Assembly: GCA_029261405.1 (NCBI GenBank)
Contig: JAJDBK010000028.1
Coordinates: 1-38,034 of the forward strand
Reading direction: 5' to 3'
DNA: 38,034 nucleotides
From: Nitrospinaceae bacterium
GTDB lineage: Bacteria; Nitrospinota_A; UBA7883; JAJDBK01
Shown here: one piece after another, positions 25,389 through 37,800 of the stretch
Layout of the letters: each line of letters begins with the position of its first letter
Numbering within the stretch: the first letter of the stretch is position 1
The notes under the pieces: generated by a model
Database searches by the model: none
Told to the model about the DNA's origin: nothing
Seen by the model: the letters and a program-made list of their open reading frames with translations, nothing else
Made by a program: the position numbers and the translations under genes

Positions 25389-26465
25389 ATGATTAAACTT
25401 ATGGTTTTTATTGACGGCACCTGGTTATATTCAAATTTGCGGCATCTGGCCAAGGAATCGAGCCAGCCCGGTTTTTATATCGATTATGGCATTCTGGCCC
25501 ACGCTCTGAAATACGAACTGGAGAGCAGGGACGACCTGCCGGAGATGGACCTTGTCCGCACCCACCTTTTCGGCAGTTACCCGGTCAACTACGATATCTG
25601 CGACGAAGACCGGGCCAGGCGCAGAAAAGATTTCTTCGCCCTGCTACGTGAGGATTACCACTATGAGGTGGAGTCGTTTCCCATCGATTACCAGAAAAGA
25701 CGCATACTGCACGATGACCGTTCCGAAGAGGACCCCTTTGTGCCGAAGGAGAAATGTGTCGATATAGCTCTGGCTACCGCGATGATGTATCACGCCGCCA
25801 TAAACTCATACGATATCGCCGTTGCGGTTGTAGGAGACAAGGATTATTACCCGCTACTCCAGAAGGTCAGGATGCTCGGCAAACGGGTCGCCATAGCCTC
25901 TATCCAGCAGTCGTGCGCGAGGATGTACGCCGAACGTAGCGACGAAAAACGGCTGAAGGATTATCATATAATCTGGCTAAACGACATGGTTTCCAAGATC
26001 GCATGGAAACCGGAGGAGACACTGGTCGAGTGCAGATCCCCGCTACACGAAGGGAATCCCGAGGCGCTGACAACCATCCGCCTGCGGGAGGGACAGCCGT
26101 TTTTTTGCGACGACTGCCGGGGAAGGTTCGCCGAGCAGAAAGCCGAGCAGATGGCGCAATATACCGGGGATGACCATGAAGAGACCATGGAGGAGGGATC
26201 GGAATGGCGCAACGAGGAGTATGAAGAGGCGGACAACTCGGTCCACGAAGGTATTATAGAAAACCTGAAACCTGACCGGGGATTCGGGTTCATCAAACGT
26301 GAGGATGGCGCCAGTTTCTTTTTTCATGTTACCCACCTGGCCAACGTGGAATGGCATTCGCTCAAGGCGGGTCAAAGGGCGCAATTCACCGTGATAAAAC
26401 AGCCGATGGGTTCGAAAGCGGGGTCCGCCGGGGAGGTTACGGTTACGGATGAACCGACAGGGTGA
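25389..26465 (+). CDS. NYN-domain (PIN-like) ribonuclease fused to a cold-shock domain
   Basis: The product has 358 residues. Residues 1-205 form a NYN/LabA-type PIN-like domain: D9 in VFIDGTWLY, D125 in CVDIALATAM, and D150/D152 in VVGDKDYYPLL supply the acidic, metal-binding active site of this nuclease family. Residues 215-243 contain C-x4-H and C-x2-C (C215, H220, C240, C243), a possible zinc knuckle. An acidic linker (260-285) leads to a cold-shock domain (287-353) with RNP1-like GFGFIKR and RNP2-like FFFHVTH for single-stranded RNA binding. The order suggests an RNase brought to RNA by its own S1-like OB fold. GGAG lies 10 bases before the ATG. The gene appears to stand alone. Confidence 0.87.
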   Translation: MIKLMVFIDGTWLYSNLRHLAKESSQPGFYIDYGILAHALKYELESRDDLPEMDLVRTHLFGSYPVNYDICDEDRARRRKDFFALLREDYHYEVESFPIDYQKRRILHDDRSEEDPFVPKEKCVDIALATAMMYHAAINSYDIAVAVVGDKDYYPLLQKVRMLGKRVAIASIQQSCARMYAERSDEKRLKDYHIIWLNDMVSKIAWKPEETLVECRSPLHEGNPEALTTIRLREGQPFFCDDCRGRFAEQKAEQMAQYTGDDHEETMEEGSEWRNEEYEEADNSVHEGIIENLKPDRGFGFIKREDGASFFFHVTHLANVEWHSLKAGQRAQFTVIKQPMGSKAGSAGEVTVTDEPTG

Positions 26466-35390: not shown

Positions 35391-35453
35391 GCTGGTCGAT
35401 TAGTGGAATTTCGCTTTTCAGACCGTGCGACATGTACTGGTCGTGCGCCACGC

Positions 35454-35491
35454 ACCCGGCTGTACGCCACGTACCCGGCTGTACGCCACGT
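35454..35491. repeat. Two perfect 19-bp tandem repeats
   Basis: ACCCGGCTGTACGCCACGT occurs at 35454-35472 and again at 35473-35491. A shorter degenerate copy (GTGCGCCACGC) lies just before at about 35443-35453. The array is in the non-coding space upstream of the IF-2N gene, 72 bases before its start. Confidence 0.85.
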
Positions 35492-35563
35492 ACTGTTGCC
35501 GAGTCCGGTGTTCTTTAGTATCATTACGGGATTAACTTTAATCTTCCTTGAGACGGTATCGAT

Positions 35564-37057
35564 ATGGAACGGATAAGGGTTTACGAAGCGGCCAGAAAAC
35601 TTAACATCAAAACCAAAGAGCTTATTCATGTTCTGAAGGAGCGGGGCGTTATTGTAAAAAGCCCCATATCTTTTATTTCGATGGAGGATTTTGAAGGCGC
35701 TTTAAGCTCCATGGTCTCCTCTCCCGACAAGATTGTGGAAGAGGAAAAAAAACCTGCGCAGAGCAAAAAGAAACGGCTCAAGATTGTGAAGAGCGAACCT
35801 GCGCCATCCAAACCCGCTAAAGCCGTTGTTCCCGAACCTGAGAAAGAACCGGCGCCTGTCGCCGTGAAAGCGAAACCGGCCGAAGTAATACCGATAAAAC
35901 GGGAAGAACCCGCAAAAGAGGTGAAGACGCCAGAACCTGCCAAGGTTGCCGCAAAGGTTAAAGAAAAGGTGGTCTCTGTGGAGGAGAAACCGGCGCCAGC
36001 CCCGTTCACCGGATATTCACCGGTTCCTATTAGCGAAAAGAAGAGCAGAGGTACTTCCGCGCCTTTCTCTTTCTTCTCCCTCGGTCTTGCGAGTGTGGCC
36101 ATGCTGGCCGCTCTGACTCTAAACTCCATGATTGCCTCGAACGAAGCGAAGATATCAGTTATCACTGGTGATGCGGCGGCGATCAAGTCGCGCCTCGCCA
36201 CAGTCAGCGGTCAGGTGGTCAAGTCGGATGAAAAAGCGGCCAGCGCAATGACGCAGGCGGATCAGGCGGACGATAAAGCTGTAAGCGCCATAAACACCGC
36301 TAACAATGCGGAACAAACCGCATTCGACGCAGTCGCCACCGCTACACAGGCGGACCAGAGCGCTACGAAAGCTGTCGCCACAGCAACGCAAGCCGATCAG
36401 AGCGCGTCTCAGGCTGTGAATACCGCTACGCAGGCCGATCAGAAAGCCTCAGGCGCAGTCGCCACCGCTACGCAGGCAAACAAAAACGCCGCCGGAGCAG
36501 TGGAGAACGCGGTTCAGGCGAATGAGAAGGCGACCGGAGCGGTGTTGACCTCCGCACAGGCAAACCAGAACGCCACCCAAGCGGTCAACACCGCTACGCA
36601 GGCAAACCAGAAAGCCTCAGGCGCAGTCGCCACCGCAACGCAGGCCGACCAGAACGCCACCCAAGCGGTCAACACCGCAACGCAGGCTGACCAGAAAGCC
36701 TCAGGCGCGGTCGCCACCGCAACCCAGGCCGACCAGAAAGCCTCAGGCGCGGTCGCCACAGCCACGCAGGCCGATCAGAAGGCGGCAGTCGCAGTGGCCT
36801 CCGCCTCGCAAGCTAACCAAACTGCGGCCGGAGCCGTGACCACCGCAACTCTGGCTGACCAGAAAGCGACCGGAGCTGTTTCTCTTGCCCAGCAAAATAT
36901 TGCCAGGATCAACAGCGTTAAAAAAGAGGAGGCCATTGTCGCCCTGCAGAAACGTTCAACCGCTCTGGCCGAGTCGTCTGTAACCTTACCGGCTAGCCTG
37001 TCGCAGAGGATCATGGACCTTTCGAGGAAAGTATCCGCCTTAGCCTCGTCGATGTAG
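35564..37057 (+). CDS. Membrane protein: IF-2 N-terminal-like domain, charged linker, one helix, 16 alanine-rich repeats
   Basis: The product has 497 residues in four parts. Residues 1-48 match the IF-2 N-terminal domain (RVYEAARKLNIKTKELIHVL then a FxSMEDFE end). Residues 55-165 are a Lys/Pro/Glu/Ala linker like that of IF-2. Residues 168-191 form a single membrane helix. Residues 223-446 contain sixteen 14-residue units, consensus QKASGAVATATQAD, then a short non-repeat tail. The 14-residue period equals two heptads, with Ala at the core positions as in alanine-zipper coiled coils such as Lpp. There is no GTPase domain, so it is not IF-2. If the N-terminus is cytoplasmic, the repeats form a periplasmic rod. 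The function is unknown. Confidence 0.8.
   Translation: MERIRVYEAARKLNIKTKELIHVLKERGVIVKSPISFISMEDFEGALSSMVSSPDKIVEEEKKPAQSKKKRLKIVKSEPAPSKPAKAVVPEPEKEPAPVAVKAKPAEVIPIKREEPAKEVKTPEPAKVAAKVKEKVVSVEEKPAPAPFTGYSPVPISEKKSRGTSAPFSFFSLGLASVAMLAALTLNSMIASNEAKISVITGDAAAIKSRLATVSGQVVKSDEKAASAMTQADQADDKAVSAINTANNAEQTAFDAVATATQADQSATKAVATATQADQSASQAVNTATQADQKASGAVATATQANKNAAGAVENAVQANEKATGAVLTSAQANQNATQAVNTATQANQKASGAVATATQADQNATQAVNTATQADQKASGAVATATQADQKASGAVATATQADQKAAVAVASASQANQTAAGAVTTATLADQKATGAVSLAQQNIARINSVKKEEAIVALQKRSTALAESSVTLPASLSQRIMDLSRKVSALASSM
36230..36901 (+). repeat. 42-bp coding tandem repeat, 16 units
   Basis: The array encodes sixteen consecutive 14-residue units with no length change. 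Units 10, 12 and 13 are identical in protein sequence and nearly identical in DNA, while the first two and last three are divergent. That is the pattern expected from expansion in the middle of the array by slippage or unequal recombination. No spacers are present, so it is not a CRISPR array. Confidence 0.9.
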
Positions 37058-37069
37058 GTAACTTTTCGC

Positions 37070-37444
37070 ATGGGAGTCTACGCCGCTGTGGCGCTTGGTG
37101 GCGCATTCGGAGCTTGCGCGCGTTACGCCGTCTCGGGGGCCGTCCACGCAAGGATGGGCGCCGCGTTTCCTTTTGGAACGCTTGCCGTCAACATTATCGG
37201 TTGTTTCCTGATCGGTCTGGCGCTCGAGATAACGGAGGGTCGGTTCATCGTAAATCATAACGTAAAACTTTTTCTCACTGTGGGACTGCTTGGAGGTTTC
37301 ACCACCTTCTCCACCTACTCGTATGAAACCATGGCCCTTCTTCGCGACGGTATGGCGGTAAAAGCGGCGATCAACGCTGTTGGATCGATTATGCTGGGAC
37401 TGGTAGGAGTTTATCTTGGAATGATTTCCGGCAGGCTGATATGA
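37070..37444 (+). CDS. crcB: Fluoride ion channel CrcB/Fluc
   Basis: This 124-residue protein has four hydrophobic segments. The family motifs are complete: GGAFGACARYAVS at the N-terminus, FGTLAVNIIGCFLIG with the pore Asn, and GLLGGFTTFSTYSYE, which holds the break with central Na+ and the Phe/Thr/Ser track. Fluc channels work as antiparallel homodimers to expel fluoride. It starts 12 bases after the IF-2N gene, leaving no room for a fluoride riboswitch, so it is probably read through from that transcript. Its stop overlaps the DUF190 start (ATGA). Confidence 0.95.
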   Translation: MGVYAAVALGGAFGACARYAVSGAVHARMGAAFPFGTLAVNIIGCFLIGLALEITEGRFIVNHNVKLFLTVGLLGGFTTFSTYSYETMALLRDGMAVKAAINAVGSIMLGLVGVYLGMISGRLI

Positions 37445-37800
37445 GCGAGGGTTTTACCAAAGCTACGCTACTCAGGATTTTTGTGGGCGAGGCGGATACC
37501 ACTTCGGGTATGGCGTTCTTCGAGGCGGTGGTACAGCTTGCCCGTGCGGAGGGGCTGTCGGGCGCTACGGTGTTACGCGGCATCGAAAGCCTCGGACAGG
37601 ACGGTACTACCCATACGGCGAGGTTACTGCGGCTGTCCGAAGACCTGCCGGTAGTGGTGGAGATAGTCGATACCCCGGAGACCATTGAGCGGTTCATTCC
37701 GAAACTCGACGAGCTTTTTATAAACGCAACATGCGGCGGTCTCATCACAACCGAAGAAATAATGATGAGAAAGTACAGGTCCACCACTGCCCGCAATTAA
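37441..37800 (+). CDS. DUF190-family protein
   Basis: This 119-residue protein matches DUF190: LRIFVGEADTTSG, FFEAVVQLARAEGLSGATVLRGIESLG, then LLRLSEDLPVVVEIVDTPETIERF and GGLITTEEI. The fold is PII-like (ferredoxin-type trimers are known in relatives). DUF190 genes are often found directly after crcB, as here, with a 4-base ATGA overlap, so a role linked to fluoride resistance or channel regulation is likely. The biochemical activity is not established. Confidence 0.92.
   Translation: MSEGFTKATLLRIFVGEADTTSGMAFFEAVVQLARAEGLSGATVLRGIESLGQDGTTHTARLLRLSEDLPVVVEIVDTPETIERFIPKLDELFINATCGGLITTEEIMMRKYRSTTARN

Follow-up and report, generated by a model that had tools for sequence, protein, structure and literature searches.

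A predicted IF-2 N1-type module on a membrane anchor in a single-copy protein family of Nitrospinota class UBA7883

An open reading frame on the forward strand (35564–37057, +) of the analyzed window, a stretch of 38,034 nucleotides from a Nitrospinaceae genome, encodes a 497-residue protein that belongs, in lengthened form, to a family found across its class. In this family the small N-terminal module of IF-2 (IF2_N) is carried as a head by a membrane helix, followed by a helix of coiled-coil type and, at the C-terminus, a cap; this architecture is well supported, and we hold it to be very probably correct. IF2_N itself is an established module; its combination with these parts appears to be new. 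Apart from the head and a generic alanine zipper, the protein is not covered by any family in Pfam or NCBIfam, and a membrane-bound IF2_N protein was not found in open-licence papers, in line with the preliminary description of this DNA, which knew of no characterized protein with such a layout. That description had recognized the IF2_N head, linker, membrane helix and rod, but did not mention the conserved cap; its parts were right, and the protein is a long variant within a family. The parts of the gene and the genes downstream of it are as follows.

35564..37057 (+): whole gene, with IF2_N head, linker, membrane helix, Ala-repeat rod and C-terminal cap (497 aa)
35564..35719 (+): predicted IF-2 N1-type head, residues 1–52 (Pfam match 1–43)
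35720..36064 (+): Lys/Pro/Glu/Ala linker, residues 53–167, predicted to be disordered (pLDDT <50 at residues 56–174) and varying among orthologues
36065..36136 (+): membrane helix, residues 168–191 (best 19-mer 168–186), kept in 22/22 members
36137..36214 (+): juxtamembrane helix, residues 192–217, common to the short orthologues
36215..36886 (+): sixteen 14-residue Ala-rich repeats, residues 218–441, only in the window's copy of the family
36917..37054 (+): conserved C-terminal helix-turn-helix cap, residues 452–497
37070..37444 (+): fluoride channel gene crcB, which follows in the same orientation; context, outside the system as far as shown
37441..37800 (+): DUF190 (COG1993) gene, overlapping crcB; context only

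The HMM check proposed for the head was run, and Pfam IF2_N (PF04760) matched residues 1–43 with E = 7e-8 and 32.6 bits, above the curated cut-off of 25.3. The protein has no signal sequence, IF2_N beginning at its first residues. Pfam and NCBIfam scans detected neither a GTPase nor the IF-2 C-terminal domains, which agrees with the proposed loss of the GTPase, and the Lys/Pro/Glu linker that had been described is modeled as disordered. Hydropathy analysis likewise bore out the membrane helix placed at 168–191: the strongest 19-mer (168–186) has a mean KD of 1.96, and no other segment comes near it. The sixteen Ala-rich repeats exist as strict units and are matched by Pfam Alanine_zipper (PF11839, E = 4e-7), while the cap is a separate match to the family profile at 36902–37054 (E = 5.5e-5). 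The IF-2 of this genome is encoded on another contig and has its own two IF2_N copies; the window protein is therefore not the working IF-2. A 19-bp unit present in 2.5 copies lies just upstream of the gene (35446–35493).

AlphaFold2 models were generated for the window protein and a short orthologue from 5–6 sequences each, with a low overall pTM (0.26–0.27). The window model has an IF2_N fold with pLDDT of about 90, disorder at 56–168, long helices from residue 169 and a turn before the last helix; in the short-orthologue model the cap is the most confidently predicted part (pLDDT 95). For both models the top solved match was the Thermus IF-2 N-terminal domain (rmsd 0.9–1.7 Å; for 4b47/4b48, Foldseek probability 1.00 and rmsd 1.0–1.6 Å). 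The small size of the domain makes the E-values of the whole models weak, and the match of the head to the IF-2 fold rests on the aligned region together with independent sequence evidence. The next match of the short orthologue was Pseudomonas IF-2 N2 on the ribosome (PDB 7uiu, 1.8 Å over 49 columns), with MerR-like DNA-binding domains ranking below IF-2. An LptF/LptG permease and a BBP2 porin are encoded in the window as well, so that the cell is expected to have an outer membrane and a periplasm. From hydropathy and charge we infer that the head is cytoplasmic and the cap periplasmic.

When relatives were searched for IF2_N, an extra copy in a short frame, on top of the two within IF-2, turned up in many genomes from the order and the class to which the window belongs. 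These short-frame proteins align end to end with the window protein except for the repeats. A family profile built from 21 short orthologues detected one member per genome in 22 of the 23 class genomes, the window's included; in three fragmented alignments, as well as for the window's own copy, the member was returned as two pieces. The sole class genome without a member, in which only IF-2 matched, is about 90% complete and split into about 170 contigs (G009). The profile search found no member in the single phylum genome outside the class, and three broad, partly overlapping searches (289, 385 and 386 genomes) returned no full-length match outside it, the other matches being mostly the IF-2 N-terminus in long frames. 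A single-protein search with the window sequence over genome contigs returned no relative; these were recovered by the family and alignment searches. Deposited names of the member genomes include UBA7883 and Nitrospinota isolate nNGHbin12, the latter belonging to the Nitrospinota class UBA7883 (PMC10839748).

Three further candidates were set aside. Two weak non-class matches (G028 and G095; L200:4009–4812 and L201:3391–4113) are membrane coiled-coil proteins whose similarity to the profile covers its linker, membrane helix and coiled coil; they carry no IF2_N and on present evidence are not orthologues. A 648-aa frame in G003, considered as a second long variant, contains a 242-aa orthologue plus open frame upstream.

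Across the orthologues the order of parts is common: head, variable-length linker, membrane helix, coiled-coil-type helix and C-terminal cap. The preliminary description had suggested a search for orthologues with its three parts; the head and membrane helix indeed occur in the same order in 22/23 class genomes, whereas the Ala rod is confined to the window's copy. When scanned individually with Pfam, 20 of the 21 orthologues matched IF2_N (40.8 bits in L035), and every member (22/22) has one membrane segment, with mean hydropathy from 1.96 to 2.84; in most, basic residues before the membrane helix equal or outnumber acidic ones. Few head residues are invariant in the alignment (M1, A10, L24 and G28). 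The final residue is F, L, M or I in 22/22 members (C-terminus at 36995–37054 in the window), and this conserved hydrophobic end may be a PDZ-type ligand or, equally, the last core position of the helix. A Ser/Thr two residues before the end, as in PDZ-type C-terminal ligands, was seen in 16/22 members.

The rod that sets the window protein apart consists of 16 units of exactly 14 residues (218–441), with Ala at unit positions 1, 4, 8 and 11 in 14, 15, 16 and 16 of the 16 copies, respectively; these four make up the core positions, two per heptad. In the 13 regular copies the difference is 0.58 at third and 0.15 at second codon positions, which indicates that the protein sequence was under selection while the DNA drifted. 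In the relatives a short coiled coil takes the place of the rod, which in the window's species follows the juxtamembrane helix and precedes the cap; judged from these alignments, it is a lineage-specific insertion lengthening the family core. A fully extended helix over residues 192–474 would measure about 42 nm (calculated at 0.15 nm per residue) and would exceed the usual periplasm. The modeled rod is interrupted at 325–329, amid the repeats, and helical hairpins occur among the fold matches; for a rod of identical repeats, however, a modeled turn is unreliable. Coiled-coil matches to SMC, UspA1 and viral fusion proteins were judged to be generic coiled-coil similarity.

To assign the head within IF-2, N1 and N2 profiles were built from the class's own IF-2 proteins. 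The head scores higher with N1 than with N2 in 21 of 22 members, and profile–profile comparison gives E = 1e-14 for N1 and 4e-6 for N2; by sequence, the head is of the N1 rather than the N2 type. The net charge of the first 50 residues spans −5 to +10 across the 22 members and is zero or negative in 14 of them, which speaks against a conserved nucleic-acid surface such as a dedicated rRNA-binding one. Domain I (N1) of E. coli IF-2, when isolated, binds NusA in cells at a site predicted to comprise KH2 and AR1 (PMC12297416). The N2 sub-domain contacts helix h16 of 16S rRNA (PMC9192638). The genome of the window has a NusA core (C24:10711–11715), and its gene adjoins infB, whose N1 lies at C24:10378–10512. 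As the NusA AR-repeat model TIGR01954 matched in 0 of 23 class genomes, a NusA contact identical to the E. coli AR1 contact is unlikely. The preliminary description had offered two roles for the head, one related to RNA or the ribosome and one as a plain protein-binding helix bundle. Either may hold; we lean towards protein binding on the basis of the N1-type sequence, the variable charge and the published N1–NusA contact.

The gene neighborhood in the sister family f6 differs from that in the window's order. In 9 of 11 f6 loci the next gene downstream, in the same orientation, is ychF, which encodes a ribosome-binding ATPase; the two are 18–92 bp apart in eight loci and 252 bp apart in one. 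The ychF gene was recognized by length (359–360 aa) and sequence. In E. coli, YchF is a 30S-binding protein that can be cross-linked to IF3 and to proteins of the small subunit, and it holds back the translation of leaderless mRNAs (PMC8138138). This neighborhood leans towards translation as the process involved. Still, the adjacency is confined to f6, the window's order having other neighbors, and synteny within one family can be inherited without function.

In 9/11 f6 loci a −10 box (TATAAT or TATAAG) ends 7–9 bases before the ATG of the gene, the arrangement expected of a leaderless transcript. A simple scan counted 24 TATAAT-before-ATG starts in 134 kb of f6 loci vs 2 in 103 kb of window-order loci, which suggests that f6 uses leaderless mRNAs widely; with so many f6 genes starting in this way, the leaderless-type start is not special to the family gene. 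In the scanned f6 loci (L160–L169 and L042), many genes have TATAAT a few bases 5' of the ATG. Several f6 loci also encode a secreted FlgT_C-domain protein divergent from the family gene, e.g., L161:6780–7622 (−).

Upstream of the window gene lie glycosyltransferases and a MauG-like haem protein; downstream are crcB and DUF190. The pairing with crcB was found only in the window and L034, and crcB was accordingly treated as context. Control of the gene and crcB by a common fluoride riboswitch was considered and dropped, with no Rfam match near the gene. About 10 kb upstream, at 25389–26465, the window encodes a protein with NYN nuclease-type and cold-shock domains, possibly RNA-related judging from these domains. 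The contig end (37850–38034) reads like the start of a transposase, with a EVDESYFGGRRK-type stretch that we take to be ISXO2/IS1595-like.

Several known systems share parts of this layout. The closest is the IF-2 N1 sub-domain (PF04760), to which the head is alike in sequence family and fold and which is likewise followed by a long charged disordered linker; in place of the GTPase and the C1/C2 domains of IF-2, the family protein has a membrane helix, a coiled coil and the cap. IF-2 N2 on the 30S shoulder (7uiu) has the same small fold, but the family head is nearer N1 by sequence. TolA has a short cytoplasmic N-terminus, one membrane helix, a long Ala-rich helical rod (domain II) and a C-terminal domain. 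A similar layout of membrane segment and helical rod is predicted for the window protein from hydropathy and the model, but its head is IF2_N, its relatives lack the rod, and TolA family models in Pfam and NCBIfam, domain III included, do not match it. The alanine-zipper lipoproteins Lpp/OprI (PF11839) also place Ala at heptad core positions, but the match to them covers low-complexity Ala heptads only; the protein has no lipoprotein signal and scores 16.5 bits with the Lpp model NF040598 (cut-off 43). RacA/MerR-like tethers resemble the family in combining a small helical head with a coiled coil. The fold similarity is weak, however, Pfam detects no MerR/HTH family in the window protein, and the family has an IF2_N head that is mostly not basic and a membrane helix of its own.

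We tentatively propose that the protein is a class-wide, single-copy inner-membrane tether whose N1-type head docks on a component of translation or transcription. The coiled coil would make the protein oligomeric, so that several heads on tethers of about 50–150 residues would face the cytoplasm. There they could dock on a contact of the IF-2 N-module, be it NusA together with RNA polymerase or the 30S initiation complex, thereby holding or modulating expression complexes at the membrane. In the window's species the Ala rod would merely lengthen the periplasmic part and be dispensable for the core function. Docking on the expression machinery is suggested because the head is IF2_N by sequence and fold and N1-like, because of the pairing with ychF, and because of the published N1/N2 contacts; the ychF adjacency in one family only, the missing TIGR01954 match and the variable head charge count against it. 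We consider it less than an even chance, and exactly as probable as an envelope scaffold in which a re-used IF2_N binds an unrelated protein while the periplasmic coiled coil and cap do the work, TolA-like. The cap and coiled coil are conserved class-wide along with the head, the confident modeling of the cap in the short orthologue and the scarcity of invariant head residues fit a re-used fold on a working periplasmic part, and the hydrophobic terminal residue could be a docking end. Against such a scaffold, the head has kept its IF2_N match in nearly all orthologues and its proximity to N1, and the f6 pairing with ychF would be left unexplained.

Narrower versions of the docking proposal are each unlikely. 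The head might act on NusA alone and never touch the ribosome, as a membrane-bound competitor or anchor at paused RNA polymerase; its N1 type, the sufficiency of E. coli N1 for NusA binding (PMC12297416) and the nusA–infB adjacency fit this, but AR repeats were not detected in any class genome, and the disordered linker has no counterpart of the E. coli beta strands 57–90 that join the predicted contact. It is about as improbable that the protein regulates translation initiation from the membrane in this class, mimicking IF-2 N1 so as to capture initiating ribosomes or their partners at the inner membrane and working with YchF. In that case, if its own f6 mRNA is leaderless, the protein could feed back on leaderless initiation, and the periplasmic cap would link the state of the envelope to translation. 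A nucleoid or DNA tether, in which the head would play the part of the MerR-type winged helices in RacA, pSK1 Par or BldC, is improbable too, and less likely than docking on expression machinery or on an unrelated protein. Lower-ranked fold matches of the short orthologue do include DNA-bound domains of these three proteins, but IF-2 comes out on top, at lower rmsd and higher identity, sequence places the head in IF2_N, and most heads lack a net positive charge. A functionless accidental fusion or decaying IF-2 fragment could be imagined from the IF-2 elsewhere in the genome with its two IF2_N copies; orthologues with head, membrane helix and cap throughout the class and the protein-level constraint on the repeats contradict it, and since the family is conserved, a meaningless fusion is practically excluded.

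Together, our results describe a stable single-copy family with IF2_N on a membrane anchor, a natural experiment on the binding partner of a module known as the front end of IF-2, whose N1 partner, NusA, was reported only in 2025. The family may also physically connect gene expression with the envelope, in bacteria distant from the commonly studied models. In addition, it illustrates how a coiled coil can take up an Ala-zipper rod without loss of the conserved head and cap.
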